From: Hydrogenivirga caldilitoris
GTDB lineage: Bacteria > Aquificota > Aquificia > Aquificales > Aquificaceae
Length of the DNA stretch: 64,000 nt
NCBI RefSeq assembly: GCF_003664005.1
Contig: NZ_RCCJ01000001.1
Coordinates: forward strand, 1,116,001-1,180,000
Reading direction: 5' to 3'
Shown one piece after another: positions 844 through 63,677 of the stretch; within the stretch, counting starts at the first letter, position 1, and every line of letters starts with the position of its first letter. Both the position numbers and the translations under genes were made by a program. The notes below the pieces were generated by a model. That model saw only the letters and a program-made list of their open reading frames with translations. It ran no database searches and was not told the origin of the DNA.

Positions 844-856
844 TAAAATATTAAGC
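844..856 (+). promoter_or_regulatory. metK -10 element, leaderless arrangement
   Basis: TAAAAT at 844-849 is followed by seven bases and then the metK ATG at 857. There is no Shine-Dalgarno sequence, so transcription would start at or next to the A of the ATG. No good -35 hexamer is visible. Confidence 0.5.
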
Positions 857-1984
857 ATGTACTCCCTCAGAATGGCAGAGTCGGTGACGGAAGGTCACCC
901 TGACAAGATAGCCGACCAGATAGCGGACACTTTACTTGATGAGTTCCTCAAAAAGGACCCATACAGCAAGGTATCCCTTGAAATACTGGTCACCACAGGG
1001 CTCGTTATGGTAGGAGGCGAGCTCTCTACAGAAAGCTTTGTGGATATACCTAAGGTGGTCAGAGGTGTCGTAAAGGATATAGGTTACACAAAACCCGAGC
1101 TTGGTTTTGATGCGGACACATGCGCAGTAATAACATCTATAGATGAGCAGAGTCCAGAGATAGCCCTGGGTGTGTCTGGTGAGGGTGCAGGAGATACAGC
1201 CATAGTTGTTGGTTATGCAGTGAAGGAAGCTCCTAACCTTATGCCATGGGCTATAACCATTGCTCACAGGATAACCCGGAAGATATCAGAGCTTAGAAAA
1301 ACTGGTAAGTGCCCATTTCTTAGACCTGACGGGAAGGTTCTGGTAAGCATGATATACGAAGACGGCAAACCCCAGTTCATCAAAGATATAGTAGCCTATG
1401 TGCACCATGACCCAGATATATCAATCCAGAATCTGCGAGAGCTTGTGATTGAAGAGGTTATAAGGAAGGAAGTTCCTTCTGAGCTCCTTGGGAACAGAAC
1501 TAACATAAGGGTAAATCCAACGGGAAGATTCGTTATAGGAGGACCCGTTGCTGATACAGGACTGACAGGAAGGAAGATAGTTTCTGACGCATACGGGGAT
1601 ATAGGTTTTTCTGGAGGGAGTGCCTTTTCTGGCAAGGATCCCACAAAGACAGACAGGTCTGGCTCTTACATGGCAAGGATGATAGCCAAGCATATCGTCG
1701 CGGCGGGTTTGGCGGACAAATGTGTTGTTCAGATAGGGTACGCCTTTGGACTCACCGAGCCTGTGGCTTTTGATATAGAAACCTTTGGAACTGAGAAGGT
1801 GGATAAGGAGAGGATAGAGGATGCTGTTCTAAAGCTGTTCCCTTTGAAACCTTGCGACATAATAGAGCTCCTAGACCTAAGAAGACCTATATACAGGGAC
1901 ACTGCCTGTTATGGGCATTTCGGAAGGGAGAAGTTCCCCTGGGAGAGGCTTGATTACTTAGACAAGCTTAAGGAACTCCTCTAA
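857..1984 (+). CDS. metK: S-adenosylmethionine synthetase
   Basis: MetK joins ATP and methionine to make S-adenosylmethionine, releasing phosphate and diphosphate, in the cytoplasm as a homotetramer. The 375 residues are typical of the bacterial family. Visible signatures are the N-terminal ATP-binding ESVTEGHPDK, the DEQSPEIA motif, and the P-loop-like GGGSAFSGKDPTK region, here GGSAFSGKDPTKTDRSG. The usual GAGDQG motif reads GAGDTA, a substitution at the substrate loop. The gene lies downstream of the 46-residue ORF but has its own -10 sequence. Its 3' end overlaps hisZ, on the opposite strand, by 27 bases. Confidence 0.97.
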   Translation: MYSLRMAESVTEGHPDKIADQIADTLLDEFLKKDPYSKVSLEILVTTGLVMVGGELSTESFVDIPKVVRGVVKDIGYTKPELGFDADTCAVITSIDEQSPEIALGVSGEGAGDTAIVVGYAVKEAPNLMPWAITIAHRITRKISELRKTGKCPFLRPDGKVLVSMIYEDGKPQFIKDIVAYVHHDPDISIQNLRELVIEEVIRKEVPSELLGNRTNIRVNPTGRFVIGGPVADTGLTGRKIVSDAYGDIGFSGGSAFSGKDPTKTDRSGSYMARMIAKHIVAAGLADKCVVQIGYAFGLTEPVAFDIETFGTEKVDKERIEDAVLKLFPLKPCDIIELLDLRRPIYRDTACYGHFGREKFPWERLDYLDKLKELL

Positions 1985-3130
1985 GCTCACAAGGTAGTAG
2001 TCCTTTACCGTCGTGTATACCTTAACGTCCTTCTCGTCAGTTACAACCACGACCTTTTTGTATCCCTCGGAAAAAGCGTAATCTAAGGAATGCTCAAGGG
2101 CTCTCCTTACTATATCCCTACCAACCTTGTACCCCTTTGAACGTAGGAGTGAGGCTACTTTAAAACCGAACTTCTTTTTATGGGATAGGTCTATCACAAA
2201 GAAATCCTTCTCCTCAGGTTTGGGTTTTAACAGAGGGAGGAGTTTATCTATGTATACACTTCCACCTGTTGCAGGAAAACTCTCACCGTAAGCTTGGGAT
2301 AGGGTATCGTATCTGCCACCCCCTGCTATGGGTGAGCCGATATTTGGATGAAAGAACTCAAAGACCACACCTGTGTAGTAAGGGAAATCTCTAACCTCAG
2401 AAAGGTCATAAATAAAATCAATCCCAGCTTCCTCCAGATGCCTGCCGAGCTCTTCAAGTTCAACCCTCTCCTCTTCAAGTCCCAGCTCCGACAAGACCCT
2501 CAAAGCCTCTTCCTTTCCTTGAATCAGCGGAAGCCGGGATATCAGCCCGTTGTCAAAAATCTCTCTTAAAAGGCTAAGGTTCCTCTCCCTAAAGGCTTCT
2601 CTCACCTCGTCCCTAAGTTCATCCTTCAGATTTTCCAAAAGCTTCCTGACTATGTTTACATGACCTATGGTTGCAACCACGCCCTTTATACCTAGGGTTT
2701 TTATATACTCCGCTGTTGCGGATATAACCTCGGCATCACCTTCAACATTTTTTACTCCTATAAGTTCAAGCCCTACCTGAAACCTCTCCCAGGTGTTGTT
2801 CTCTGAGGAGAAGAGAGTTCCAAAGTAGTAAAGCCTAAGGGGGAAGTGCCAGACCTTAAAGAAGCTAACGCTCCTCACAACTTGTGTAGTAAAATCTGAC
2901 CTCAAGCCTATCAGCTCGCCCTCCTGTGTATCTTTAAAGACTATCGTCCCCGAAGATTTGCTCCCCAGGGCTTTCACGTGAACCTCATAGTGGTCAAAGG
3001 CAGGCAGTTTTATATAGTTATAGCCCCATCTTTCAAAAACCTCCATTGCGGTCAGTATGCTTCTCTTTATAAGGTTTGATTCAGGGACGGTAAGAATTCT
3101 CTCAAAGGGTAGGAGTGTAGGTTTTGTCAT
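1958..3130 (-). CDS. hisZ: ATP phosphoribosyltransferase regulatory subunit
   Basis: HisZ is a histidyl-tRNA-synthetase-like protein that binds the short form of HisG and allows feedback control of the first step of histidine synthesis. The N-terminal 300 residues show the class II synthetase-type fold signature, including LRSDFTTQVVR (the motif 2 region) and the late GGGRYDTL motif, but the protein lacks the full anticodon-binding domain. At 390 residues it fits the HisZ family. It is the last gene of a grpE / small protein / NYN operon; its ATG overlaps the preceding stop (ATGA). No hisG is adjacent. A true HisRS is the alternative, but the length and motif loss favour HisZ. Confidence 0.87.
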   Translation of the reverse strand: MTKPTLLPFERILTVPESNLIKRSILTAMEVFERWGYNYIKLPAFDHYEVHVKALGSKSSGTIVFKDTQEGELIGLRSDFTTQVVRSVSFFKVWHFPLRLYYFGTLFSSENNTWERFQVGLELIGVKNVEGDAEVISATAEYIKTLGIKGVVATIGHVNIVRKLLENLKDELRDEVREAFRERNLSLLREIFDNGLISRLPLIQGKEEALRVLSELGLEEERVELEELGRHLEEAGIDFIYDLSEVRDFPYYTGVVFEFFHPNIGSPIAGGGRYDTLSQAYGESFPATGGSVYIDKLLPLLKPKPEEKDFFVIDLSHKKKFGFKVASLLRSKGYKVGRDIVRRALEHSLDYAFSEGYKKVVVVTDEKDVKVYTTVKDYYLVSLEEFLKLV

Positions 3131-3624
3131 TTCACAGCTTCCTCCAGCTTTATCTCTTCTATTATGTCCCTTAACTCTATATATCTATCCGCTGCGTTAA
3201 CCACCTCTATGGAAGAACTATCCCTGGTGGAAACACATACGACCTCTTTTCCAAAGGAGCGTAGAACGTTTATAAGCTTCTCAAAATCGCTGTCTCCGGA
3301 GCACAGGATAGCAACATCGTAGTTATCCTTAGTAAGGAGCATATCTATAGCCATTTCAACGTCAAGATTTCCCTTAAAGCTCCCATCCGGCAGGTGTTTT
3401 ATCGGCTTTCTGACTACGGTTATACCACTGAAAGCCAACATCCTGTAAAACTTCTCTTGCTTTTCATCTTCCTCCCTGTAAGCCAGGTAAAAGAAGACGT
3501 TGTATATTGAGTAAAACCTCTTGAAATACTCCACAAATTTGACCAGGTCTATCTTCACATTCAGGTAGTTTCTCTGTATGAAGTACAGGTTTGTACCGTC
3601 TATGAATATACCTGCCCTCCTCAT
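3127..3624 (-). CDS. NYN domain protein, LabA/DUF88 family, probable ribonuclease
   Basis: The 165-residue protein is a single NYN domain, a PIN-like nuclease fold. Conserved acidic residues appear in order: GIFIDGTNLYF at the N-terminus (first Asp), LDVEMAIDML near residue 90, and LCSGDSDFEKLI near residue 110. These are the metal-binding Asp residues of the family. Known relatives cleave RNA or are called LabA/DUF88 proteins; the target here cannot be told. It overlaps both neighbours by four bases in the grpE-hisZ operon, so it is likely made together with a chaperone cofactor. Confidence 0.85.
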   Translation of the reverse strand: MRRAGIFIDGTNLYFIQRNYLNVKIDLVKFVEYFKRFYSIYNVFFYLAYREEDEKQEKFYRMLAFSGITVVRKPIKHLPDGSFKGNLDVEMAIDMLLTKDNYDVAILCSGDSDFEKLINVLRSFGKEVVCVSTRDSSSIEVVNAADRYIELRDIIEEIKLEEAVK

Positions 3625-3821
3625 TTCTCTTCACCGACTGTGTACCATACCCTTATCCCCACAGAAACATGGGAATTTCTCTGCCAGAGGGTTTCAACAT
3701 TTATAACCTTTACCCTGTTGAGTCTTATCCATTCATTTACCTGCTCCTCCAGAAGCTGTTCCATGCTTTCATCTTTAAAGGGTGCCAGCTTCCTGTGAAA
3801 GTCCTTAAACCTTATCTCCAT
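3621..3821 (-). CDS. Small conserved-context protein of the grpE operon
   Basis: A 66-residue basic/acidic soluble protein of unknown function. ATG at 3821 overlaps the grpE stop as TGATG, and GAGGAG lies about eight bases upstream; a GTG one codon earlier (3824) is also possible. The sequence begins MEIRFKDFHRKLAPF and ends with a beta-rich section (VSVGIRVWYTV). No cysteines or membrane span are present. It overlaps the NYN gene by four bases. Its tight placement between grpE and the nuclease argues for a real gene. Confidence 0.65.
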   Translation of the reverse strand: MEIRFKDFHRKLAPFKDESMEQLLEEQVNEWIRLNRVKVINVETLWQRNSHVSVGIRVWYTVGEEK

Positions 3822-4393
3822 CACGTTATCTCCTCTTCCGGCAGGGATACAACCACCTTTGCGGGTCTTATAACTTTCCCGTGAAGTTTGTAACCTTTCT
3901 GAAGAACCTTGACGACAGTGTTTGGTGGGTGTTCCTGAGCCTGGACGGTCTCAACCGCCTCTGCCAGGTAAGGGTCAAATTCTTTTCCTTGAATGTCTAT
4001 CTCCTGAACATTGTACCTTTCAAGAATTCTTCTGAGCTCTGAATAAATCATTTCAACTCCTCTGAGCAAGGAGTCAAAGTCCTTCGTGGTAGCGGCAGCC
4101 GATAAAGCCCTTTCAAAGTTATCAAGCACATTGAGTATATCAAGGGTCAGAGCCTCATAACCAAACTTTCTCTGCTCCTCAATGTCCTTCCTGTACCTCT
4201 CTTTCAAGTACTCTATCTCTCTCTGGAGTTCCGCTGCCCTTATGTTTGAGTTCTTAGCTATGGTTTCAAGCTTCTTTACCTTTTCTTCCAGTTCTCTTAT
4301 CCTGTTTTGGAGTTCTTCAACCTCTTCCTCTTCTTTCTTCAATTCTTCTTTAACCTCTTCAATTTCCTCTTTAAGCTCTTCCTTCCTTTCCAT
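3821..4393 (-). CDS. grpE: GrpE nucleotide exchange factor
   Basis: GrpE releases ADP from DnaK and so drives the DnaK-DnaJ chaperone cycle. The protein has 190 residues. The first 75 residues are a long, highly charged coiled coil full of Glu and Lys, followed by the four-helix and beta domain with the family signature near DFDSLLRGVEMIYSELRRIL and the C-terminal PNTVVKVLQKGYKLHGKVIRPAKV. The start has a strong AGGAGG seven bases upstream. It is the first gene of a four-gene minus-strand operon. dnaJ is far away in the window (about 45 kb) and dnaK is not here. Confidence 0.97.
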   Translation of the reverse strand: MERKEELKEEIEEVKEELKKEEEEVEELQNRIRELEEKVKKLETIAKNSNIRAAELQREIEYLKERYRKDIEEQRKFGYEALTLDILNVLDNFERALSAAATTKDFDSLLRGVEMIYSELRRILERYNVQEIDIQGKEFDPYLAEAVETVQAQEHPPNTVVKVLQKGYKLHGKVIRPAKVVVSLPEEEIT

Positions 4394-4485
4394 TCCTTAC
4401 CTCCTGGTTCAATTCTAAGTATAAGGATAAGTTTAAGCTCAGCGATTTACAAGAGTTTGAGATGAGAGTGACGCCCTATACAGTT
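4394..4485. other. Divergent intergenic region between grpE and pncB
   Basis: About 90 bases separate the divergent grpE and pncB starts. I see a repeated TAAG/TAAGT pattern near 4416-4434 but no CIRCE or HAIR operator of the kind expected for heat-shock genes, so control of grpE is not evident from the sequence. Confidence 0.35.
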
Positions 4486-4498
4486 TAAAATAAGTCAA
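4486..4498 (+). promoter_or_regulatory. pncB -10 element, leaderless arrangement
   Basis: TAAAAT at 4486-4491 ends seven bases before the pncB ATG at 4499. The intervening bases (AAGTCAA) are not a ribosome-binding site. The spacing is identical to that at metK. Confidence 0.5.
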
Positions 4499-5767
4499 AT
4501 GGAGAAACTGGGGCTCTGCACAGACCTGTACGAACTCACTATGGCTCAAAGCTACCTTGAACATGGAAAGACCGGCAATGCCGTCTTCAGCCTCTTTGTC
4601 AGAAAACTCCCGGAAGCGAGAAACTTTCTTGTATCCTGTGGACTGGAAACGCTCCTTGAACAGTTAGAGAGGTTTCGGTTCGGAGATGAAGAACTCAAAT
4701 ACCTCAAGAACCTGGGCAGGTTCTCCACAGACTTCCTTGACTATCTTAGGGACTATGAGTTCAGGGGAAACATATATGCGATACCTGAGGGAAGAATATT
4801 CTTCCAAAACGAGCCCATAGTTCAGTTTGAGGGGAGTCTCCCTGAAGTTCAGATACTTGAAACCCTGGTGATAAACATTATTCACTTCCAGACAGTTATA
4901 GCCTCAAAGGCTGTAAGAAGCTTCCTGGTTTCAAGGGGAAAAGCTCTGGTTGACTTTGGATTCAGGAGAGCCCACGGGCTTGAAGCGGGCATATACGCTG
5001 CAAGGGCTTCCTACATAAGCGGTTTTGCAGGGACATCTAACCTTGAAGCGGGAAGGAGGTTTGGCATACCTGTGTTCGGAACGGTTGCCCACTCCTACAT
5101 AATGATCTTTGACCGGGAAGAAGAAGCCTTTAAGGCTTTCGCTGAAAGCTTCCCAAAGAACGCTGTCTTCCTCCTTGATACCTACGATACGATTGAAGCG
5201 GCAAAGAAAACCGTCCAACTCGCAAGGAAGGGGGTTCCCGTCGTGGGTGTGCGGCTTGACAGTGGGGATATAGAGTACCTTTCAAAGGAGGTGAGGAGAA
5301 TCCTTGACGAAGGGGGACTAAAGGAGGTGAAGATAATAGTCAGCGGTGGTGTTGATGAGTACAGGATAGATAAGTGGCTCTCTAAGGGCTGTCCTATAGA
5401 CGCCTTCGGGGTCGGAACCAAGTTCATAACCTCCGCAGATGCCCCATACCTTGACATGGCTTACAAACTGGTAGAGTACGAGGGCAAACCCAAGGTCAAG
5501 ACAAGTCCAGGAAAAGCTACCTTCCCCTTTAAGAGACAGGTATACAGGTTTTACGGGGAAAAGGGGATGGAGCGGGATGAGGTTGTGATTTACGGAGAGG
5601 AGGCTGAAGGGGAAAGTCTCGTAGATAAGGTGATTGAGGGAGGATCTCTGAAGATAAAGCTACCGAGTTTGAACGAGATAAGAGAGAGGATGATGGAGGA
5701 CATAGAAAGGCTACCCCCGGAGTTAAAGTCTTTAGAGAAACACGATTACAGGGTTATCATAAAATAA
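4499..5767 (+). CDS. pncB: Nicotinate phosphoribosyltransferase
   Basis: This enzyme makes nicotinate mononucleotide from nicotinate, PRPP and ATP, salvaging the NAD precursor. Its 422 residues fit the family. Signatures are the N-terminal CTDLYELTMAQSYL, DFGFRRAHGLEAG around residue 155, GTVAHSYIM near residue 198, the PRPP-site VRLDSGD near residue 252, and FGVGTKFITS near residue 300. It is a stand-alone gene, with tRNA-Arg starting only three bases after its stop. The two could share a transcript, with the tRNA cut out. Confidence 0.93.
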   Translation: MEKLGLCTDLYELTMAQSYLEHGKTGNAVFSLFVRKLPEARNFLVSCGLETLLEQLERFRFGDEELKYLKNLGRFSTDFLDYLRDYEFRGNIYAIPEGRIFFQNEPIVQFEGSLPEVQILETLVINIIHFQTVIASKAVRSFLVSRGKALVDFGFRRAHGLEAGIYAARASYISGFAGTSNLEAGRRFGIPVFGTVAHSYIMIFDREEEAFKAFAESFPKNAVFLLDTYDTIEAAKKTVQLARKGVPVVGVRLDSGDIEYLSKEVRRILDEGGLKEVKIIVSGGVDEYRIDKWLSKGCPIDAFGVGTKFITSADAPYLDMAYKLVEYEGKPKVKTSPGKATFPFKRQVYRFYGEKGMERDEVVIYGEEAEGESLVDKVIEGGSLKIKLPSLNEIRERMMEDIERLPPELKSLEKHDYRVIIK

Positions 5768-5770
5768 TCA

Positions 5771-5844
5771 GTGCCCGTAGCTCAGATGGATAGAGCACGG
5801 GGCTCCGGACCCCGGGGTCGCGGGTTCAAGTCCCGCCGGGCACG
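5771..5844 (+). tRNA. tRNA-Arg (anticodon CCG)
   Basis: The cloverleaf is clear. The acceptor stem GTGCCCG pairs with CGGGCAC. The D arm is GCTC/GAGC, the anticodon stem is CGGGG/CCCCG with loop CTCCGGA (anticodon CCG), and the T arm is GCGGG-TTCAAGT-CCCGC. The discriminator base is G at 5844. CCA is not encoded (TGAA follows), so it must be added by a nucleotidyltransferase. It lies between pncB and a polyprenyl synthase gene that starts 11 bases later. Confidence 0.95.
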
Positions 5845-5854
5845 TGAAAGGAAG

Positions 5855-6781
5855 ATGCTGTTTCTGGAGAGTATAGAGAGAAGGCTTATTGAGGAGCTAA
5901 ACCCAAAGGTACGGCTCGTTTTAGAAACCGGCAGATACCTTATAGAAGGCGGCGGGAAGAGGTTGAGACCACTTGTAACGGTCTTAGCCTGCGGTATGTG
6001 TGGGGGTGAACCCGAAAGAGCTCTCCCCTTAGGGGTAGGTCTTGAATACATACATGCTGCCTCGCTTCTTCACGATGACGTTGTAGATGGAGCTAAAAAG
6101 AGAAGAGGTAGGGAATCAGCAAACCTTATATTTGGAAACGAGGTGGCCGTTCTTACAGGAGACTACATGTATGCGAAAGCCCTTCACTTATTTTCAACTT
6201 ACGGTACTATGGAGATGATAAAACTTGTCAGTCAGGCTGTTATGGACATGGCTGAAGCTCAGGTGCTTGAGTTGAGCAAGGTTGGTGAGCTTATAACGGA
6301 GGAGGAGTACTTTCAGATTATAGATGGAAAAACGGCAGTCCTGTTCGGGACATGTATGGCTGTCGGAGGTATGTCCGGAGGATGCGATAGTAAGGAAAAG
6401 CTCTACGAGGCTGGTTTGAGAATGGGGAGGGCATTTCAGCTCATTGACGACCTTCTGGACTACGCCGGAAATCCAGAAAAAACAGGCAAACCTGTGGGTA
6501 ACGACCTCAGAGAGGGGAAAACCACCTATCCCCTACTATCTGTCCTAAAAGGTCTGGATGAAGATGAGGTCAGGAAAGTTTTAAGGGATACAAACCCATC
6601 ACAAGAAGCTATAGATGACCTCAGAAGGGCGGTTCTAAGCCTTGGAGGCGACCTAAAAACTAAAGAAAGGGCAATACTGGAGCTTTCTGCAGCCAAGGAC
6701 ATACTGAGCGAGTTTCCGGACAACCCGTATAAGGAAGAACTTCTCAAAATCATGGACTTCGTAGCCTTCAGAGAACTTTAG
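5855..6781 (+). CDS. ispB: Polyprenyl diphosphate synthase (octaprenyl-type)
   Basis: A trans-isoprenyl diphosphate synthase that extends farnesyl or geranylgeranyl diphosphate for the side chain of a quinone. The 308 residues carry both aspartate motifs: LLHDDVVD (first) and LIDDLLDYAGN (second), plus GGGKRLRP and the GKTTYPLL motif. The true start is ATG 5855 after GAAAGGAAG; the frame remains open upstream only because it runs through the tRNA gene. Chain length cannot be judged with certainty; the small residues before the first motif favour a long-chain product. It overlaps the PP2C gene tail to tail by 14 bases. Confidence 0.9.
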   Translation: MLFLESIERRLIEELNPKVRLVLETGRYLIEGGGKRLRPLVTVLACGMCGGEPERALPLGVGLEYIHAASLLHDDVVDGAKKRRGRESANLIFGNEVAVLTGDYMYAKALHLFSTYGTMEMIKLVSQAVMDMAEAQVLELSKVGELITEEEYFQIIDGKTAVLFGTCMAVGGMSGGCDSKEKLYEAGLRMGRAFQLIDDLLDYAGNPEKTGKPVGNDLREGKTTYPLLSVLKGLDEDEVRKVLRDTNPSQEAIDDLRRAVLSLGGDLKTKERAILELSAAKDILSEFPDNPYKEELLKIMDFVAFREL

Positions 6782-7520
6782 CGAGAATAAAGCTTATATT
6801 ATCACTCCCCCCACGGTAAGCTTTCTCAAAAAGACACACGGACCCTTCAAAGGTTGACATGCCCGTACAGAGACTCATATCACCTTCGTGGAGCTCTCCC
6901 CATAACCCGTCCGAGCATATAAGGAACAGGTCTCCGGGGTTTACGTCAACCTCATGAACGAACACTTCAAATTCCTCAAAGTACCCACCCGTAATAGCGG
7001 AGGTAAGGATGTTCCTGTAAGGATGATTTCTAATTTCCTCTTCGCCTATTATCCCCCCCTCATAGAGTTCGTAAGCCTCTGTATGGTCTCTTGTCAGTCT
7101 CTGGAGCTGTTCCCTCTTCCTATAAACCCTGCAATCTCCAACGTTGAAAACCACCGCTTTAGAGCTCTCAATAAAGATACCCGCAACGGCTGTACCCATA
7201 CCCCTGCAGCGCCCATGGACTTCAACGTAGCTGTCAAGATGTCTTTTTGCTTTCTTTAAAAGTATCAGAAGCTCCTCCCTATCTGAAACATGAAAACCTC
7301 TGAGGTATTCAAGGGTGAGCCTGCTGGCTTCCTCACCACAGGGAAGACCTCCCATACCGTCCGCAACAGCTAAGGAAACTTGGCGTTCAACATGAAAGGT
7401 TTTCAGGACAGGCTTATCCAGGGACAGCCCACAGATAACTTCCTGGTCTATAAGCAAAGCATCTTCATTTTTGCTTCTTACCCTGCCCCTGTTTGTTAAA
7501 TAGGAAACTTCCAGCCTCAC
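6768..7520 (-). CDS. PP2C-family serine/threonine protein phosphatase
   Basis: A metal-dependent phosphatase of the PrpC/Stp1 type that removes phosphate from Ser/Thr of proteins. The 250 residues contain the family motifs in order: RSKNEDALL near residue 15, VADGMGG near residue 53, GDCRVY near residue 123, ICSDGLW near residue 200, and SDNISFIL near the C-terminus. The Asp residues that bind the two metals are all present. It has no membrane segment. The start overlaps the stop of a Spy-like periplasmic gene by four bases, so the two form an operon. No partner kinase is nearby. Confidence 0.9.
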   Translation of the reverse strand: MRLEVSYLTNRGRVRSKNEDALLIDQEVICGLSLDKPVLKTFHVERQVSLAVADGMGGLPCGEEASRLTLEYLRGFHVSDREELLILLKKAKRHLDSYVEVHGRCRGMGTAVAGIFIESSKAVVFNVGDCRVYRKREQLQRLTRDHTEAYELYEGGIIGEEEIRNHPYRNILTSAITGGYFEEFEVFVHEVDVNPGDLFLICSDGLWGELHEGDMSLCTGMSTFEGSVCLFEKAYRGGSDNISFILAKVL

Positions 7521-7942
7521 TGTTGAAGCTCAAAGAGTCTCACCACAATTATATTTTTAAGCTTCTCAAACTGTTCGGGAGTAAGAGTCTCCCTTAAAAA
7601 CCTGACACTTCTCGCGTTGAGCAGGGACATCTCCATTTTCACGGAAGCTATGTCAGCAAGCACTTCCCTGAGTTCCTTCTCATCACTTCCCTCAAGGATC
7701 ATAAGTTTGGCTTTTCTGTTAAGGTACTCCAGTATCTTTGTGTTCCTTTCAGTTTCCTTCTCATTCTCCTTCACAAAGTTTTTTATCTTCTCCATCTGGG
7801 AGTTATCAAGTCCTATCTCATCTGCATATTTGAATACGAAGGGCATAAGGAACACCCTCTCTACAAGGTAATACTTACTCAAGCCTTCCTGAGAAAATGA
7901 GACTCCGATAAGAAGCATCAGCGAAAGCACCACTCTCTTCAT
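7517..7942 (-). CDS. Spy/CpxP-like periplasmic protein
   Basis: A 141-residue secreted helical protein. The N-terminal 17 residues (MKRVVLSLMLLIGVSFS) are a signal peptide. The mature part is almost all charged helix, ending with the LTPEQFEKLK motif typical of the LTxxQ (Spy/CpxP) family. Family members act as ATP-independent chaperones or stress sensors in the periplasm; some bind metals. Here no metal-binding His/Cys cluster is visible. It is the first gene of a two-gene operon with the PP2C phosphatase. Function is inferred from the motif only. Confidence 0.65.
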   Translation of the reverse strand: MKRVVLSLMLLIGVSFSQEGLSKYYLVERVFLMPFVFKYADEIGLDNSQMEKIKNFVKENEKETERNTKILEYLNRKAKLMILEGSDEKELREVLADIASVKMEMSLLNARSVRFLRETLTPEQFEKLKNIIVVRLFELQQ

Positions 7943-7946
7943 ACCG

Positions 7947-7959
7947 TAGAATATTATAG
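7947..7959 (+). promoter_or_regulatory. hisA -10 element, leaderless arrangement
   Basis: TAGAAT at 7947-7952 ends seven bases before the hisA ATG at 7960, with no ribosome-binding site between. TATTAT at 7952-7957 is an alternative but sits too close to the start. Confidence 0.4.
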
Positions 7960-8667: not shown

Positions 8668-8680
8668 GAAAGGAGTGAGA

Positions 8681-8887
8681 ATGCCCTACGTTTACAGGTT
8701 CAGACCCTGTCCCAATAAAAAGCAAGAAGAGCTCTTCAATAAACAGGTGAGACAATGCAGGGCAGCGTTAAATTCCTTGAAGGAAGGCTTCACCCGCCTT
8801 AAAAGGGTGGTAGGGGTGGACTGTTCCAAGCTCATACCTGTGGAGGGAATGCTTGTTCCCTGTGAAGAGGTGAGGAAGCCACAATGA
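8681..8887 (+). CDS. 68-residue protein resembling fused pieces of IS605 TnpB
   Basis: ATG 8681 has GGAAAGGAG six bases upstream; GTG 8675 is an alternative start. The stop overlaps the corA ATG (ATGA), so the two are probably translationally coupled. Residues 3-31 (YVYRFRPCPNKKQEELF then CR and N) match the pattern of the N-terminal helix-turn-helix of IS200/IS605 OrfB/TnpB. Residues 43-66 (VVGVDCSK, EGMLVP, RK) resemble the first RuvC strand of the same protein. That would make it a TnpB with the middle and C-terminus deleted. This is my reading of the pattern and needs a profile search. It could equally be an unrelated basic protein. Confidence 0.55.
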   Translation: MPYVYRFRPCPNKKQEELFNKQVRQCRAALNSLKEGFTRLKRVVGVDCSKLIPVEGMLVPCEEVRKPQ

Positions 8888-10341: not shown

Positions 10342-10347
10342 GACGGT

Positions 10348-10364
10348 TTAACAGAATTTTAACA
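10348..10364. promoter_or_regulatory. Pho-box-like tandem repeat between psiE and phoB
   Basis: TTAACA occurs twice, at 10348-10353 and 10359-10364, exactly 11 bases apart (one helical turn), each followed by GAA. Nine bases further on is TTTATT (10374-10379), a possible phoB -10. The same arrangement occurs upstream of pstS. PhoB/PhoP regulators of the OmpR class bind 11-base direct repeats, so this is probably the autoregulatory PhoB site, also serving psiE. Confidence 0.7.
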
Positions 10365-10394
10365 GAAGGTTTCTTTATTTTTATTTTAAAGGTT

Positions 10395-12019: not shown

Positions 12020-12043
12020 GACTTAAGGTAATAAAGATAAGCT

Positions 12044-12075
12044 TTAACAATTCCTTAACAATTCCTCCATAAAAT
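12044..12075 (+). promoter_or_regulatory. pstS promoter with Pho-box-like tandem repeat
   Basis: TTAACA is repeated at 12044-12049 and 12055-12060 (11-base period), within the exact tandem TTAACAATTCC. Nine bases after the second copy is the -10 TAAAAT (12070-12075). The repeat therefore takes the place of the -35 element, the usual position for PhoB activation. It lies between the divergent phoR and pstS genes. Confidence 0.75.
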
Positions 12076-18706: not shown

Positions 18707-18718
18707 TAAAATTAAGGT
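18707..18718 (+). promoter_or_regulatory. fba -10 element, leaderless arrangement
   Basis: TAAAAT at 18707-18712 ends six bases before the fba ATG at 18719. The bases TAAGGT between them are at best a weak ribosome site. The nor palindrome lies 24 bases upstream, so one regulator could affect both genes. Confidence 0.4.
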
Positions 18719-20119: not shown

Positions 20120-20155
20120 ATTTTCTAATATATGAAATCCTGAGCCTTTAGTCAA
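20120..20155 (-). promoter_or_regulatory. Sigma-70 promoter of the 20.1-kb cytochrome, leaderless
   Basis: On the minus strand TTGACT (20155-20150) is followed by 17 bases and TATATT (20132-20127). Seven more bases lead directly to the ATG at 20119. This is a near-consensus promoter whose transcript would begin at the start codon. Confidence 0.7.
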
Positions 20156-20156: not shown

Positions 20157-20169
20157 TAAAATCCTCCTT
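20157..20169 (+). promoter_or_regulatory. -10 element of the P-loop kinase gene, leaderless arrangement
   Basis: TAAAAT at 20157-20162 ends seven bases before ATG 20170. The spacer is CCTCCTT, the reverse of a ribosome-binding site, so none is available. It overlaps the promoter of the divergent cytochrome. Confidence 0.5.
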
Positions 20170-22003: not shown

Positions 22004-22017
22004 TATAATATAAGATA
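22004..22017 (+). promoter_or_regulatory. -10 element of the DUF202 gene, leaderless arrangement
   Basis: TATAAT at 22004-22009 ends eight bases before ATG 22018. The bases ATAAGATA hold no ribosome-binding site; an AAGGA at 21996 is 18 bases away. Confidence 0.45.
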
Positions 22018-28411: not shown

Positions 28412-28425
28412 GGAGGAATATTATA
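28412..28425 (-). promoter_or_regulatory. aspS -10 element, leaderless arrangement
   Basis: On the minus strand TATAAT (28425-28420) is followed by eight bases (ATTCCTCC) and the aspS ATG at 28411. The spacer is the opposite of a Shine-Dalgarno sequence. Confidence 0.5.
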
Positions 28426-30581: not shown

Positions 30582-33450
<2,869 letters not shown>

Positions 33451-33478
33451 TTATTACTCAAAGAGAGGAGGGTGAGCC

Positions 33479-36526: not shown

Positions 36527-36547
36527 AGTCTGTTATTGATTATATCC

Positions 36548-38812: not shown

Positions 38813-38830
38813 ACAGAGGTAATTATAAGC

Positions 38831-42560: not shown

Positions 42561-42572
42561 TATATTCCCGTT
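42561..42572 (+). promoter_or_regulatory. mazG -10 element, leaderless arrangement
   Basis: TATATT at 42561-42566 ends six bases before the mazG ATG at 42573. CCCGTT between them is not a ribosome site. Confidence 0.45.
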
Positions 42573-49407: not shown

Positions 49408-49421
49408 TCTGGTCCTCCTCA

Positions 49422-50664: not shown

Positions 50665-50676
50665 AGAGGAAATATA
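50665..50676 (-). promoter_or_regulatory. bioH -10 element, leaderless arrangement
   Basis: On the minus strand TATATT (50676-50671) is followed by six bases (TCCTCT) and the ATG at 50664. It supports 50664 as the bioH start. Confidence 0.4.
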
Positions 50677-50689
50677 ATAAGAGAAACCC

Positions 50690-53990: not shown

Positions 53991-54007
53991 CGGAGGTGTA
54001 AATTATA

Positions 54008-56039: not shown

Positions 56040-56059
56040 GTTTTAAAATAAATTCCATT

Positions 56060-57097
56060 GTGAGGGATAAGGTAGAGTGTGAGTTACACAGAAAGATAGT
56101 AAAGGGGGAGGCTCTGAGCGAGGAGGACTACAAGGTCCTAAGCGGGATAGTAAAGGAAGTTCTCACCTTCATGGCTAAGGAGAAGATACTACCTTCACCC
56201 CAGAACTACGAGAGGTGGTTCAGGATATTCTGCTACGCAAAGGAGAACAATCTCAACCTTTCTAAGAGTGAACTCATAGACCTTTACTTTGACCTTTACC
56301 AGGTGAAGCTGGAAAAGGGTGATTTGGAGTCCGCAAGCGTGGTTGAAAGGATAGCCGAGGAGTTATTTGAAGAGATACAGAAGGTTTTAAAGAGCGTCAG
56401 CGAGCACGATAGAGGGCTCTCTGAAGGGGGACAGAGGCTTGAAAGCATGGTCTCTTCCGTGCAGACGGAAGAACTTCAAAAGCTCCTCAACAGGATAATG
56501 CACGAGGTTAGGGGGCTAAAGAGTGTAAACAGGAAGTTCATAGTGAAGCTGGAAGAGCAGAGGAATGAGATAGAAAGGCTCAGAGAAGAGCTGAGGAGGG
56601 TGAAGGAGGAGGCAAACGTTGACCCCCTGACAGGTTTAAGGAACAGGCGCTCCTTTGAGAGAGCCCTTAACGAGTTCTACCGGGACTTCAAGAAGTTTGG
56701 CTATCCATTCTCCTTAATAATGCTTGACCTTGACAACTTTAAACAGATAAACGATACATACGGACACCTGGTTGGCGATAGGGTTCTGAGGGAGATAGGA
56801 AACATCCTCAGAAACTATCTTCGTGCAAAGGACGTTCCCGCCAGAACCGGCGGGGAGGAGTTCACCATAATCCTGCCCGGCATAACCAAGGAAGAAGCCC
56901 TGATGGTTGCAGAGAGGTTGAGAAAGGTTATATCAAACCACATCATAGAACACGAGGGCAAAAGCATAAGATTGACGTCAAGCTTTGGTGTCGCCGAAAT
57001 GTCAGAGAATATTGAAAACCCCGAGGACCTGCTCAGACTGGCAGACCAAAGACTATACAAGGCAAAGAGGGAGGGCAAGAACAAGGTTGTAGGTTAG
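56060..57097 (+). CDS. Cytoplasmic diguanylate cyclase
   Basis: A 345-residue protein with a helical N-terminal domain (about 1-170, ending in coiled coil) and a C-terminal GGDEF domain. It makes c-di-GMP from two GTP. The active site [12 protein letters not shown] is intact and the I-site RAKD lies five residues before it, so product inhibition is expected. No membrane segment is visible. It starts with GTG 56060. Its end overlaps uvrA tail to tail by four bases. Confidence 0.9.
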
Positions 57098-59877
57098 GCT
57101 ACTTCCTCTTCCCTGCTTACGTACTTCTTCAGATATATACCCGTGTAAGAACCCCTGTGGGAGGCTATGTCCTCAGGAGTTCCTACCGCAACTATCTCCC
57201 CTCCCCTTTCACCTCCTTCCGGACCAAGGTCAATTATCCAGTCTGCGCACTTTATTACATCAAGGTTGTGCTCTATAACCACAACTGTGTTTCCTCTATC
57301 CACAAGCCTCTGGAGAACGTTTATCAGTTTCCTTATATCATCCATGTGAAGACCCGTGGTGGGTTCGTCCAGTAGATAGAGGGTTCTACCCGTTTCCCGT
57401 TTGGAGAGTTCCCGGGCGAGTTTTATTCTCTGAGCCTCACCGCCGGACAGGGTGGGCGCAGGCTGTCCGAGTCTGAGATAACCAAGCCCCACATCCTTAA
57501 GTAACTGGAGTTTCCTTCGGAGGGAAGGGATGTTCTCAAAGAACTCGTAAGCTTCGTCTATGGTCATATCAAGCACATCGGAGATGGTTTTGCCTTTATA
57601 GAGTATATCCAGGGTCTCCCGGTTGTACCGTTTGCCCTTGCAGACATCACAGGTCACGTAAACAGGAGGAAGGAAGTGCATTTCAACCTTAATTACACCT
57701 TCACCCTGACAGGCTTCGCACCTGCCCCCCTTAACGTTAAAGGAGAACCTTCCTGGCTTGTAGCCCCTCGCCTTTGCCTCCGGTGTGCTCGCAAACAGGT
57801 CCCTTATCTGGTCAAAGACCTTCGTATAGGTGGCTGGATTGCTTCTCGGGGTTCTACCTATGGGAGACTGGTCAACGTTTATGACCCTATCAAAGTTTTC
57901 AAGCCCTTCTATCCTGTCCACGTTTCCAGCCTGTTCCCTCAGACCTTGAAACTCTCCCTTCGCATACCTGTAAAGGACATCATATACAAGGGTTGACTTC
58001 CCGCTACCCGATACACCAGTTATGCAGACAAAAAGACCTACAGGTATCTCAACGGTTATGTTCTTCAAGTTATGTTCCTTTGCTCCCACAATTCTTATAA
58101 ACTTATCCCTTGGCTTCCTCCTCTTTTGCGGAAGAGGTATCTCAAGCCTGCCGGAGAGGTAGGCTCCCGTCAGAGACCTTGGGTTCGTGAGTATCTCCTC
58201 AAGGTTTCCCGTTGCAACCACTTCTCCTCCAGCCTTACCTGCGCCCGGTCCGAGCTCAACTATGTAGTCCGCTGACTCTATGGTCTCAGGGTCGTGTTCA
58301 ACCACTATTACCGTATTACCTATATCCCTGAGTTCCTTGAGAGTGTTTATAAGTCTGTTGGTATCTCTCGGGTGCAAACCGATAGAGGGTTCGTCAAGGA
58401 CGTACAGAACACCGGTTAGCTTCGCTCCTACCTGGGTAGCAAGCCTTATCCTCTGCATCTCCCCACCTGAGAGGGTGGTGGCACTCCTTGACAGGGAAAG
58501 GTAGTCAAGACCCACCTCAACCAGAAAACCGAGCCTTTCAGATATCTCTTTTATGAGCCTCTGTCCTATCAGCAGGTCTTTCTCACCGAGTTTACGAGGA
58601 AGCTCCTCCATCCAAACCCTTGCCTTACCAACGGGCATATCCGTCACATCCCATATGCTCTTACCCTCTATGAGAACAGCAAGTGCTTCATCTCTCAGCC
58701 TTGAACCACGGCAGGAGGGACAGGGTTTCTCAAGTATGTAGTCCTGTATTTCTTCCCTTATCCTCTCAGAGTCCTCCTCCAGAAACCTCCTCTCAAGATG
58801 TCTTATTATTCCCTCAAACTCAAACTCCTGGGTGGAACCGTACAGAAGAATCTTCCTTGCCCTTTCTGGAAGGCTTCTGAAGGGCGTCCTGGGGTTCAGC
58901 CCGAGCTTCCTAAGAACGTTAGCAACAGGGAACTTCAGGTAGTTAAAGAGGGCAGAGTCCGCTATTCTAAAGGCATTCACCGCTGGCTCGTTCTCATCAA
59001 TGAGAAGTCCTGGGTCAATCTCCCACTTGACACCGAGTCCCTTACAGCTCGGGCAGGCTCCGTAGGGAGAGTTGAAGGAGAAGAGCCTGGGTGATAGTTC
59101 AGGTATGGTGAAACCGTGGTCTGGACACACCAGCTTCTCACTGAACAGCTCCTCCCTACCGGTTTCCACATCCTCTATCTTTACAAGACCGGTAGCAAGC
59201 TCTAAAGCTCTCTCCAGGTCTGTCAGGAGTCTGGAACGCTCTTCCTCGTCAAGTGTTAGCCTGTCTATGACTATATCTATGCTGTGTTTTTTATTCTTCT
59301 CTAGGGGAGGTACCTCTATAATCCTCCTTAGCTCCCCATCAACCTTTATACGGGAGAAACCCATCCTGTCTATGTCTCTGAGCAGGTCTCTGAACTCTCC
59401 CTTCCTGCCCCGCACGACAGGTGCAAGGATCATAACCCTCCTGCCCCTGTACTTGTCAAAGACCTTTTCCAGTATCTCGTGGGCTGATAAACCCTCAAGC
59501 AGACGGTTGCACACAGGACAGTGAGGTTTTCCTATATTCGCCCAGAGAACCCTCATATAGTCGTATATCTCTGTCACCGTCCCGACGGTTGAGCGGGGGT
59601 TTTTTGAGGTGGTTTTCTGGTCTATCGCAATAGCCGGAGACAACCCTTCAATAAGCTCAACCTCCGGTTTTTCCATCACACCGAGGAACTGACGTGCATA
59701 AGAGGACAGGGATTCAACGTACCTCCTCTGTCCTTCAGCGTATATGGTGTCAAAGGCTAAAGAGGATTTGCCCGAACCCGAAGGTCCGGTTATTACAACA
59801 AACCTGTTCTTCGGTATCTCAAGGTCTATGTTCTTTAGGTTGTGCTGACGTGCCCCTTTTATAACTATCCTGTCCAT
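57094..59877 (-). CDS. uvrA: UvrA, excinuclease ABC subunit A
   Basis: UvrA finds DNA damage and loads UvrB in nucleotide excision repair. The 927 residues have two ABC ATPase halves. The first Walker A is [16 protein letters not shown] and the second [14 protein letters not shown]; signatures are [17 protein letters not shown] and [15 protein letters not shown]; both halves have zinc-finger Cys pairs (CPDHG/CPSCKG and [14 protein letters not shown]). It stands downstream of rph and the CcmI-like gene but has its own -10 nine bases from the ATG. Confidence 0.97.
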
Positions 59878-59919
59878 ATTCTTCTTATTTTAAGTTTTGT
59901 CCAGAACCGCTTCCACCCT

Positions 59920-60369
59920 CTAAGGAACCTCCGTGTCTATAACCACCTTCACGTTCCTATCACCCGCCTTTGCGGTTGCACCCCCAACAAGGTCCCCTTT
60001 CTGGGCTTCCGCCATTGAAGACTTGCTGACCCGGACGCTTATCAGGAGGTCACCCTCAATCAACCTGTCCTGCCTGATTTTGTTTTTCCCGGTGATTTTA
60101 AAGCTAAAGGGAAACTCAGGATTTTTCACTCTGAGGACAGCTATTGGCTGTGGGTCGTCAGGACTCTTAACTGCTATTATCAGGAAGAAGGGTTTCTCGG
60201 GAAGCCTATCCCTGAGTTTGTCATCCAAAACAACTACCCCTTTAACAAACTGGTTTTCATATCTCTCAAGCTTCTTTCTCCCTTCCTCACCCCTGTAATC
60301 CTTTGGAAGTTCTTGGCAGGAAAGGGTCAGAACGCCAAAGAAACTCAGTAAAAGGAGAAGAGCCTTCAT
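59920..60369 (-). CDS. Lipoprotein resembling the C-terminal domain of CcmI
   Basis: A 149-residue predicted lipoprotein (ALLLLLSFFGVLTLSC lipobox). The mature sequence matches the pattern of the periplasmic C-terminal domain of the cytochrome c maturation protein CcmI/CycH: FFLIIAVKSPDDPQPIAVLRV, FPFSFKITGK, LISVRVSKSSMAEAQKGDL and the end VKVVIDTEV. The TPR and transmembrane parts of CcmI are absent. It may hold apocytochrome c. It starts directly after the rph stop. Confidence 0.72.
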   Translation of the reverse strand: MKALLLLLSFFGVLTLSCQELPKDYRGEEGRKKLERYENQFVKGVVVLDDKLRDRLPEKPFFLIIAVKSPDDPQPIAVLRVKNPEFPFSFKITGKNKIRQDRLIEGDLLISVRVSKSSMAEAQKGDLVGGATAKAGDRNVKVVIDTEVP

Positions 60370-61137
60370 TCAGAACCTTGCCTCCTTAACGTCCTTCCTC
60401 TTCCAGTATCCTATCGCTCTGTTTACCTCATATAGAGCCTTCTGCAATTCCACAAGCTCAGATATACCCTTTAGAGCCAGGTCAAGGAGGTTATCCAGCT
60501 CATCTCTCGTGAAGGTGTACTCCTCACCCATAGCCTGCACCTCAGAGAGTTTCCCCTCTCCTGTGCCAACGACATTCATATCCACCTGAGCCACGGAATC
60601 TTCCTCAAAGTTGAGGTCCAGAAGTTGTTTTCCGTTAACTATGCCCACACTCACCGCGGCAACGAAATCCTTTACAGGAACTGTCGGGATAGTACCATTC
60701 TCGTACAGCTTAATCAGGGCATCCGTAACCGCAACAAAGGCACCGGTTATTGAGGCTGTCCTTGTACCACCGTCAGCCTGTATAACGTCACAATCAACCC
60801 ATATGGTTCTCTCACCGAGTTTAGTAAGGTCAACAGCCGTTCTGATGGCACGACCTATCATCCTCTGTATCTCATGGGTTCTGCCACTTATCTTTCCCTG
60901 AACGGACTCCCTTATGTTCCTTGTATGGGTAGCCCTTGGGAGCATTGAATATTCAGCCGTTATCCAGCCCTGTCCCTTCCCCTTCAGGAATGGTGGGACA
61001 CTTTCCACCACAGATGCGGTGCATATAACTTTTGTGTCACCAAACTCAATCAGACACGAACCCTCCGGGTGGTTCAAGAAATCCCTAACGATTCTCACAG
61101 GTCTCAGCTCATCCTCTCTTCTTCCTTCTTTACGCAT
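60370..61137 (-). CDS. rph: RNase PH
   Basis: RNase PH trims tRNA 3' ends using phosphate. The 255 residues show [70 protein letters not shown] and VAAVSVGI, all typical. It is preceded by a diguanylate cyclase gene (6 bases) and followed directly by the CcmI-like gene. Its -10 hexamer is eight bases from the ATG, inside the 3' end of the preceding gene. Confidence 0.96.
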
Positions 61138-61151
61138 GGTGGACTATTTTA
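61138..61151 (-). promoter_or_regulatory. rph -10 element, leaderless arrangement
   Basis: On the minus strand TAAAAT (61151-61146) is followed by eight bases (AGTCCACC) and ATG 61137. It lies within the 3' end of the upstream gene. Confidence 0.4.
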
Positions 61152-62217
61152 AATTAACACGCTCACAAAAGTGCACTACTTTATTCTTTCCACTCCTCTT
61201 AGCTTCGTAGAGAGCCTTATCTGCCTTTAAAAGGAGCCTCACAGGGTCGTCTTCCTGGGACAACTCGGCAACCCCAAAGCTTGCGGTTGAGACGACACCA
61301 TTCTCAAACTCGCAGAGTTCCACCTTTTCCTTCAGTTTCTGAGCGACAAGGACAGCTTGTTCACAGTTGGTCTTCGGAAGTAGAACTATGAACTCCTCCC
61401 CTCCCCAGCGGGCTACTGTGTCTGACTCTCTCACATTTTTCGCAACCATGGAGGCTACCTCTCTCAGAACCATATCACCAAATAGATGCCCGAACGTGTC
61501 ATTAACCTCCTTAAAGTTATCCAAGTCAAATATGATAAGGGAAAGCGGTTCACCGTAGCGTTTAGCTCTTTCCACCTCCTTATTCAGGAGTTCCTCAAAG
61601 AAGGCTCTGTTTAATAATCCCGTGAGGTTATCCTTCTGAGCTATACCCTGCCAAACTTCTCTGTATCTTTCTGACATCCACGCATAGAAATAGAGGATCA
61701 CCGTTATAATTGCGTAGCTTAAGTAGGTATCTATAAGGGATTCAACATACACCCTCCTGACGAATAAGATCAGAGAAAGATGGATAGCCAGATAGGCTAC
61801 GGACAAGAAAAGGGCTTTTCTTCCTTTTAGGATAAAGGATAGGGCGGGGACAACACTCAGCCACAGGAGGCTTGACCTATCTTCTGGGAGCTCGTCAAAT
61901 ACAGCCACTATTAAGACAAATCCAAAAAGCGCTATCGCAACCGTGGCAAGGTTTTCAATGTTTCTATACTTTCTGGCTACAAAGGGAGCAGCAAGGAGAA
62001 AGGAGCTAACCGCAAGCTCCGCTAACGCTACCGCAGTATCACCCTCCCTGAAATCTGCCAGTGAGTAAAACAGAGCCGCAATGGAACCTATGAAGGATAG
62101 GGCTGTCAGCAAACCGATTCTTAAGAAAACTGTACGATATATAAGTGGATTTGTAGCCCTCTCCTCCGGAGGTATAAGCTCAGATATAAAGCGGGAAACT
62201 CTTCCCCTAATCCCCAT
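61144..62217 (-). CDS. Membrane-bound diguanylate cyclase
   Basis: A 357-residue protein with about six transmembrane helices in the first 180 residues and a cytoplasmic GGDEF domain. The active site WGGEEFIVLLPK is intact with an I-site RESD five residues upstream. The membrane part resembles 7TM/MASE-type sensors without clear ligand residues. It makes c-di-GMP. It starts the minus-strand run cyclase, rph, CcmI-like protein, uvrA. Confidence 0.9.
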   Translation of the reverse strand: MGIRGRVSRFISELIPPEERATNPLIYRTVFLRIGLLTALSFIGSIAALFYSLADFREGDTAVALAELAVSSFLLAAPFVARKYRNIENLATVAIALFGFVLIVAVFDELPEDRSSLLWLSVVPALSFILKGRKALFLSVAYLAIHLSLILFVRRVYVESLIDTYLSYAIITVILYFYAWMSERYREVWQGIAQKDNLTGLLNRAFFEELLNKEVERAKRYGEPLSLIIFDLDNFKEVNDTFGHLFGDMVLREVASMVAKNVRESDTVARWGGEEFIVLLPKTNCEQAVLVAQKLKEKVELCEFENGVVSTASFGVAELSQEDDPVRLLLKADKALYEAKRSGKNKVVHFCERVNLK

Positions 62218-62243
62218 TTATTTACTTGGACTATTTTAAGTTA

Positions 62244-62256
62244 TATATTTATCAGT
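62244..62256 (+). promoter_or_regulatory. -10 element of the 86-residue gene, leaderless arrangement
   Basis: TATATT at 62244-62249 ends seven bases before ATG 62257, with TATCAGT between; no ribosome site. Confidence 0.45.
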
Positions 62257-62517
62257 ATGGCAAAGAAGAAGGAAGAACTCAAGGTTGAGAGTTTAGAAGA
62301 GGAAGTTCAAGAGTTAAGGAAAAGCCTTTTTGGTATATTTGAAGCGCTACTACCACCCAAGGAGGTCAGGGAAGAGGTTTTGAAAAACCTTTATACAATT
62401 GAACTTTCCTTTTTAAAGGTCTTTAAAACCCTGCTTGATTATCAGGTTGAGAGCTTAGAGCATAAGATTGAGAAAAAGAGCTCCAGAAAGAGGGCTCAGA
62501 AGATAGAAGTTGAATAG
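62257..62517 (+). CDS. Charged coiled-coil protein, 86 residues
   Basis: I do not recognise this small protein. It starts with a coiled coil (EELKVESLEEEVQELRKSL), has a hydrophobic middle (FGIFEALLPPKEVREEVL), and a basic C-terminus (KIEKKSSRKRAQKIEVE). The overall shape recalls small helical proteins that bind DNA or larger complexes. It has its own promoter and lies between a divergent cyclase and the convergent amrS gene, stopping one base before it. Confidence 0.65.
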   Translation: MAKKKEELKVESLEEEVQELRKSLFGIFEALLPPKEVREEVLKNLYTIELSFLKVFKTLLDYQVESLEHKIEKKSSRKRAQKIEVE

Positions 62518-63537
62518 TTAGAACCTCCCCTTTATCTCGTAGCCACATCTTCCACAGCTGCCGTTTACCAGGTCTATGTCCGTAATCAGGTAACCTCTCC
62601 TCCCTATCACCTTGTTCCCACACTTTGGACAGAATGTGCTCTCGTGGTCATTTCCGAAGACGTTCCCTACAAAAACATACTCTAACCCAGCTTCCTTACC
62701 TATCTGATACGCCCTTTCAAGCTCCTGTATAGGCGTTGGTGGAAGGTCCTTAGCTTTATAATGGGGGAAGAACCTTGATAAATGCCAGGGAACCCACGGA
62801 GCAAGCTCATCAGCTATCCATCTGGCTATTCCCTTTAACTGCTCTTCGTCAAGATAGTTGGGAACCAAAAGGGTTGTAAGTTCAACCCACTTTCCCCTTT
62901 CAAAGACATACTTTATCGTGTCTAAAACAGGTTGTAATCTACCCTTTGAATACTTTCTGTAAGAATCGTCAGAGAAAAACTTTAGGTCTATGCTGTAAGC
63001 ATCCATGTACCTGTCTATTTCCTCAAGGGGTTCACGGTTTATGTACCCAGCTGTGACCATTATGTTTTTAAGCCCTTTTTCCTTAGCGAGTTTTGCCACA
63101 TCAATCATATACTCAGCAAATATGGTGGGGTCTGAGTAAGAGTAAGATATACTCTCACATCCCTGTTCAAGGGCTTTTTCAACTACCAATTCAGGAGGGA
63201 CATTGGTACTGACGAAGAAAGTGTTCTGGATTACTTCACCCTTTGGAACCTGGGAGATCTCCCAGTTCTGGCAACCCTTACAGTGTAGGTTACATCCAGG
63301 TGTGGCTATCGTCAAAGTCCCATGTCCCGGGTAAAAGTGGAAGAGGGGCTTCTTCTCAACAGGGTCAATAGCTGCAGAGATTACAGAGCCGTACGTGTAA
63401 GTGTAAAGCTGACCCCCATGGTTTACCCTCACTCCACAGGAACCTACCTGTCCATCCTTCAACTCGCATTTTACGGGACAGAGGTAACATTCAACCTTCC
63501 CGTTTATAGGCTTCCAAAACTTGGCTACCGTTTTCAT
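62518..63537 (-). CDS. amrS: AmrS-type radical SAM protein (AmmeMemoRadiSam system)
   Basis: A 339-residue radical SAM enzyme. The CxxxCxxC site is in ATPGCNLHCKGCQNWEIS near residue 85, with GSCGVRVNHGG before it and SYSYSDPTIFAEYM typical of the AmrS family. The C-terminal 45 residues form a zinc ribbon (CPKCGN and CGRCGY). The reaction is not known; partner genes (AMMECR1, Memo) are not in the window. It is divergent from glyQ and has a leaderless -10. Confidence 0.85.
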   Translation of the reverse strand: MKTVAKFWKPINGKVECYLCPVKCELKDGQVGSCGVRVNHGGQLYTYTYGSVISAAIDPVEKKPLFHFYPGHGTLTIATPGCNLHCKGCQNWEISQVPKGEVIQNTFFVSTNVPPELVVEKALEQGCESISYSYSDPTIFAEYMIDVAKLAKEKGLKNIMVTAGYINREPLEEIDRYMDAYSIDLKFFSDDSYRKYSKGRLQPVLDTIKYVFERGKWVELTTLLVPNYLDEEQLKGIARWIADELAPWVPWHLSRFFPHYKAKDLPPTPIQELERAYQIGKEAGLEYVFVGNVFGNDHESTFCPKCGNKVIGRRGYLITDIDLVNGSCGRCGYEIKGRF

Positions 63538-63549
63538 TATCTAATAATA
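63538..63549 (-). promoter_or_regulatory. amrS -10 element, leaderless arrangement
   Basis: On the minus strand TATTAT (63549-63544) is followed by six bases (TAGATA) and ATG 63537. TATATT (63551-63546) is an overlapping alternative at eight bases. Confidence 0.4.
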
Positions 63550-63664
63550 TAAAGCTTAAATAATTTTAGTCTAGTCCTATAAAAGATATGCGTTTAACCC
63601 CACCTATCTCTATAACATTCCCAAGGTTCAGCTGAGGAGCGTAGGTGGTCTCACAACTTTAATG
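63550..63664. other. amrS-glyQ intergenic region
   Basis: The region has an inverted repeat, CCACCTA (63600-63606) and TAGGTGG (63642-63648), 35 bases apart. It contains no tRNA and no T-box consensus for the glycine synthetase. A short plus-strand ATG frame (63588-63635) has no ribosome site. Confidence 0.35.
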
Positions 63665-63677
63665 TAAAATACTTGGC
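63665..63677 (+). promoter_or_regulatory. glyQ -10 element, leaderless arrangement
   Basis: TAAAAT at 63665-63670 is followed by ACTTGGC and ATG 63678, a seven-base spacing with no ribosome site. Confidence 0.5.

Follow-up and report, generated by a model that had tools for sequence, protein, structure and literature searches.

The window, the stretch of 64,000 nucleotides analysed here, covers bases 1116001-1180000 of a single-contig 1.75-Mb Aquificaceae genome; among named records, the closest match to its MetK (90% identity) comes from an Aquificaceae metagenome assembly. A sequence-only reading had proposed that fourteen of its genes carry a -10 hexamer ending 6-8 bases before the start codon, and a base-by-base check found this arrangement in 14/14. 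The spacer is 6 nt in three genes (fba, mazG and bioH), 7 nt in seven (metK, pncB, hisA, the cytochrome, the P-loop kinase, the 86-aa gene and glyQ) and 8 nt in four (DUF202, aspS, rph and amrS). The elements are:

844..849, plus strand: -10 TAAAAT of metK, 7 nt before the ATG (857)
4486..4491, plus strand: -10 TAAAAT of pncB (Pfam NAPRTase), 7 nt before the ATG (4499)
7947..7952, plus strand: -10 TAGAAT of hisA, 7 nt before the ATG (7960); conserved in six genomes of genus g1
18707..18712, plus strand: -10 TAAAAT of fba, 6 nt before the ATG (18719)
20127..20132, minus strand: -10 TATATT of the cytochrome gene (Pfam Cytochrome_CBB3), 7 nt before the ATG (20119), with a -35 TTGACT at N17
20157..20162, plus strand: -10 TAAAAT of the P-loop kinase gene, 7 nt before the ATG (20170)
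22004..22009, plus strand: -10 TATAAT of the DUF202 gene, 8 nt before the ATG (22018)
28420..28425, minus strand: -10 TATAAT of aspS, 8 nt before the ATG (28411)
42561..42566, plus strand: -10 TATATT of mazG, 6 nt before the ATG (42573)
50671..50676, minus strand: -10 TATATT of the alpha/beta hydrolase (bioH-like) gene, 6 nt before the ATG (50664); overlaps the -10 of a divergent ABC transporter gene by 4 bp
61146..61151, minus strand: -10 TAAAAT of rph, 8 nt before the ATG (61137)
62244..62249, plus strand: -10 TATATT of the 86-aa gene, 7 nt before the ATG (62257)
63546..63551, minus strand: -10 TATATT of the radical-SAM gene (amrS), 8 nt before the ATG (63537)
63665..63670, plus strand: -10 TAAAAT of the gene named glyQ in the sequence-only reading, 7 nt before the ATG (63678)

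The narrow spacing proposed for these elements holds for the peak at 6-8, but a real tail reaches 12. The window contains at least eight further cases with spacers of 9-12, among them:

33448..33453, minus strand: -10 TAAAAT of tgt, 9 nt before the ATG (33438)
36539..36544, minus strand: -10 TATAAT of an OppC-like permease gene, 12 nt before the ATG (36526)
38822..38827, minus strand: -10 TATAAT of a DEAD-box helicase gene, 9 nt before the ATG (38812)
54002..54007, minus strand: -10 TATAAT of a GGDEF-EAL gene, 11 nt before the GTG (53990)
59887..59892, minus strand: -10 TAAAAT of uvrA, 9 nt before the ATG (59877)

The fourteen genes had also been said to lack a Shine-Dalgarno sequence, and its 4-nt core is absent from the 18 nt before the start in 14/14 (glyQ was judged by eye). 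Their description as first genes was faulted in two cases, with rph lying 6 bp and the DUF202 gene 20 bp behind a same-strand gene. The claim that genes inside operons nearly always have AGGAGG proved too strong: where the upstream gap is ≤10 bp, ∼58% of genes (196/338) have the 4-nt core in range. The TTGACT-N17-TATATT promoter of the cytochrome gene is real.

Two other upstream regions in the window carry repeats of a different kind. Pho box-like direct repeats, in which CTGTTAAA recurs, lie at 10342-10394 between a divergent PsiE-family gene and a response regulator gene, and upstream of 12019, ahead of a histidine kinase gene, GGAATTGTTAAGGAATTGTTAAAG forms a repeat resembling a Pho box.

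To compare these arrangements with chance, we used 864 kb of the same genome, made up of 40 spread stretches (800 kb) and the window, in which 866 genes were called by a dicodon model blind to upstream signals. Start codons are those of our own gene calls, with ortholog support for a handful of genes, and divergent genes (n = 244) were taken as first genes. The count against shuffled upstream sequences that the sequence-only reading had suggested came out clearly in its favor in this sample: a -10 element ends 5-9 nt before the start in 97/244 divergent genes, compared with 14.2 in dinucleotide shuffles. When spacers of 5-12 are taken and the shuffles preserve columns, retaining positional AT-richness and per-column base composition, 102 are observed against a mean of 19.8 and a maximum of 28. 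A motif search seeded with TATAAT converged on TA[T/A]A[A/T]T. Most of the weight fell on spacers 6-12, and a second hump, at 28-33 nt, is what a minority of leadered genes would produce; the same search on tightly spaced operon genes drifted to a Shine-Dalgarno motif. In all contexts together, 183/820 genes pass where ∼34 are expected, which by this measure puts the leaderless share at ∼18% of genes. The element is found in 42% of divergent genes and 8% of tightly spaced ones. Even among same-strand genes with a gap of ≤10 bp it occurs in 28/338 (expected 5; sample L002-L041), which suggests leaderless promoters inside upstream coding sequence. The element and the Shine-Dalgarno sequence are mutually exclusive: of the 102 divergent cases, 100 are without a Shine-Dalgarno sequence and 2 have one, and across the sampled genomes of the family it accompanies 3/219 -10-bearing genes.

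To place this trait within the phylum, we compared families in one pipeline, with a mononucleotide shuffle of the 40 nt adjoining the start as background. Here f1 is the family of the window (64 genomes), f2 and f3 are further families in the order, and f4 and f5 are others in the phylum; judged from tree position, f2 appears Hydrogenothermaceae-like and f5 Desulfurobacteriaceae-like. Among divergent genes, the share whose -10 ends 5-12 nt before the start is 29-77% in eight f1 genomes. It is 5-12% across three genomes of f2 and 8% in a single f5 genome, values that all match the shuffle background, and 0/38 in E. coli; a g10 genome with 10 genes and an f3 genome with 6, both small samples, were included as well. 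The start-proximal -10 is a mark of family f1 (Aquificaceae). Loss of ribosomal protein S1 or bS21 was considered as a cause and rejected, with S1-like genes found in 92/92 genomes and S21 in 89/92.

Individual genes show the same element in orthologs. In most g1, g2, g10 and g11 genomes the -10 of metK holds its distance of ∼6-8 nt to the ATG while the upstream gene and sequence differ, and fba, for which the comparison is informative within g1, g2 and g10, has a proximal -10-like element in orthologs L344-L348 too. Where hisA has a divergent partner (g1 genomes), TAGAATATTATAG stands directly before the ATG; where it overlaps an upstream gene (most g2 genomes), it has GGAGGT and a TTG start. 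A -10 as first gene and a Shine-Dalgarno sequence when operon-internal is what transcription, not ribosome binding, predicts. The aspS gene looks leaderless in the f1 genera g1, g3, g4 and g6, and in most f2 and f5 genomes it has TATAAT ∼25-35 nt upstream together with a GGAGG- or GAGAGG-type element. The aspS and hisA comparisons thus allow the same gene to be seen with and without a leader. The aspS starts of g8, g9 and g10 are not a clean fit to the leaderless pattern, nor are those of f3, which have no Shine-Dalgarno sequence and a -10-like element at ∼9-12 nt. In a separate observation on f3, UvrA matches in genomes G106-G111 come in two pieces, split near residue 235-240 and on different contigs in several of them; in G106 a single contig holds both pieces, ∼120 bp apart and within the same open frame, and f3 uvrA may be a split gene or one with an in-frame insert.

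In three close pairs of the window the genes stand head to head:

7953..7958, minus strand: -10 TATAAT of a 141-aa gene (7942..7517) divergent to hisA; the two -10s are back to back and the ATG A's 18 bp apart
50673..50678, plus strand: -10 TATAAT of the ABC transporter ATPase gene, 11 nt before the ATG (50690), divergent to the bioH-like gene
56040..56059: 20-bp intergenic region GTTTTAAAATAAATTCCATT between an amidohydrolase gene (minus) and a GGDEF gene (plus), with the plus-strand -10 TAAAAT at 56044-56049 and a weak minus-strand -10

The core TATAATATTCTA of the hisA pair is retained in six g1 genomes, where the gap measures 17-20 bp, and the divergent partner is conserved in g1 as well. 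The overlapping double -10 of the bioH-like/ABC pair recurs in several g1 genomes; where the ABC gene is in an operon, only the bioH-side -10 stays in place. Median divergent gaps are 50-86 bp in f1 (g10, with five pairs, is an outlier), 101-151 bp in f2 and f5 and 275 bp in E. coli, and the pooled f1 gaps peak at 16-18 bp (16/247 pairs). With a gap of 17 bp, as in the hisA pair of the window, the two ATG A's are 18 bp apart; symmetric promoters of Salmonella and E. coli favor this same distance between their paired start sites (PMC10268837). Among f1 pairs with gaps of 8-30 bp, both strands bear a -10 at leaderless distance from the start in 31/47, compared with 5.7 ± 2.0 in gap-wise shuffles, a count that pools related, non-independent genomes.

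These close pairs could be a by-product of genome compaction, the reverse -10 reflecting the symmetry of TATAAT-like hexamers with no working second promoter. Unpaired leaderless promoters do show a reverse hexamer in 62-65% of cases, but close pairs show it in 94% (p = 0.009), and the excess over gap-wise shuffles, the conservation of the core across g1 species and the fact that both partners are first genes needing some promoter all speak against symmetry by itself; we regard this explanation as possible but doubtful. For roughly one divergent pair in eight, a single very short two-way promoter seems to make up the entire control region. A more specific proposal, to which we give an even chance, is that a single near-symmetric -10 core of ∼15-25 bp would be the complete intergenic and promoter region of two leaderless genes, that polymerase would bind it in either orientation with the genes competing at each initiation, and that such cores would have arisen after a loss of leaders in f1 that is absent in the sister families.

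The sequence around the element bears on where transcription would begin. At the position just before the ATG, 77% of genes with spacers of 6-9 and 53% of other genes have a pyrimidine (p = 3e-7), which fits the usual -1Y/+1R initiator if +1 is the A of the ATG. A -35-like hexamer at 16-18 bp spacing is found in 39 cases against 24 expected, a weak excess reached by 1/500 shuffles. A free -35 motif search of the leaderless set yielded no -35-like motif; its top motif, gAGctT, is at scattered positions and is probably coding bias. In leadered first genes CTTGAc stands out more clearly, 17 bp from the -10; since leaderless promoters barely have it, the two classes may differ in their dependence on the -35.

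Most isolated tRNA genes likewise have a TATAAT upstream, at 10-17 nt, which identifies this hexamer as a promoter element in the genome. At this distance short leaders remain, and the idea that tRNAs are generally leaderless was therefore rejected. Ahead of tRNA-Arg(CCG) (5771-5844), TAAAAT at 5760-5765, within the 3' end of pncB, ends 5 nt before the mature 5' end, and this tRNA may be nearly leaderless, unlike most other isolated tRNAs. The RNase P of the family, the protein HARP (PMC10941002), bears on this case.

The -10 element might instead yield very short leaders of 1-5 nt. Spacers of 9-12 make up 75/183 cases and spacers of 10-12 about a quarter, the -1 pyrimidine is weaker at 10-12 (55%), and with a tail reaching 12 some mRNAs may carry such leaders. 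However, the mode at 6-8 with its strong -1 pyrimidine fits a start at the A of the ATG, and the two classes may coexist; as an account of the whole set, short leaders in place of truly leaderless mRNAs seem unlikely to us. It is highly improbable that the AT-rich element is a translational signal on a leadered mRNA, such as an S1 site or an unstructured region, a reading put forward for some phyla that do not rely on Shine-Dalgarno sequences. Every sampled genome has S1-like genes, and Nakagawa et al. 2017 (PMC5397173), who reported a U/A bias near -10 in Aquificae, raise a translational reading for AT bias at -20 to -10, but position-specific composition falls far short of the observed count, the element occurs mainly at first genes and gives way to a Shine-Dalgarno sequence in operon-internal hisA, and it is accompanied by the pyrimidine initiator and the -35 excess.

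Thus all the sequence tests favor the proposal that leaderless mRNAs are common at first genes over a ribosome-binding or AT-richness signal, and we consider it very probable that first genes are leaderless through a housekeeping-sigma -10, with two-way cores in close f1 pairs. The housekeeping-sigma -10 would have RNA polymerase begin on the start codon or 1-5 nt ahead of it. First genes would then yield leaderless mRNAs, and ribosomes would bind directly to the 5'-AUG, presumably by 70S-type initiation, while operon-internal genes would mostly use a Shine-Dalgarno sequence. In close pairs, one segment of 15-25 bp would act as a two-way leaderless promoter for both divergent genes, whose starts can lie as near as the symmetric -10 core permits (A to A ∼17-19 bp) because no leader is needed.

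The comparison provides a clean natural experiment: within one order, one family appears leaderless at many first genes and related families are leadered, which allows a given gene to be studied in either state. The origin of bacterial leaderless translation thereby becomes open to testing, as does the idea that it is a relic of an ancestral mode. If real, the two-way leaderless cores would rank with the smallest regulatory regions that two genes could share. At a practical level, annotation pipelines that expect a Shine-Dalgarno sequence may misplace starts in Aquificaceae.

The core leaderless finding is already known in kind: Zheng et al. 2011 (PMC3160421) predicted 20.7-32.4% leaderless genes in 2/5 Aquificae genomes and showed a motif for Aquifex aeolicus. 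The genes described here resemble the TA-led leaderless class of that work, with TANNNT ∼12 bp upstream (counted from its first T) and no Shine-Dalgarno sequence; here, too, a -10 lies ∼6-8 bp before the start more often than chance allows, the Shine-Dalgarno sequence is absent and the genes are mainly single or operon-proximal. Shine-Dalgarno and Pribnow motifs are described in the A. aeolicus dRNA-seq paper (PMC4227106), in which searches turned up no mention of leaderless mRNAs or UTRs. In Mycobacterium and Deinococcus-Thermus, leaderless transcriptomes likewise have a -10 beside the start codon of many first genes (PMC3160421); these belong to other phyla, richer in GC and with a -10 that is less defined, and the present case is known from sequence alone. 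Compared with the per-genome predictions in the passages of Zheng et al. that were consulted, the present analysis adds ortholog switching, a family boundary and candidate shared two-way promoters. A literature search that covered few subscription journals found no paper on shared two-way leaderless promoters, and the f1 divergent-gap peak at 16-18 bp with -10s on both strands is apparently new. The closest relatives of the two-way cores are the bidirectional symmetric promoters (Warman 2021, 2026; Middlemiss 2023, PMC10268837), in which one near-symmetric -10 serves opposite-strand starts ∼18 bp apart; such promoters have a -10 on both strands and start sites 7-25 bp apart, and at the sequence level the cores described here match this, with a -10 on both strands and start-codon gaps peaking at 16-18 bp. 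Unlike the symmetric promoters of Salmonella and E. coli, however, both directions here would lead into leaderless protein genes, and the core would be the whole intergenic region.
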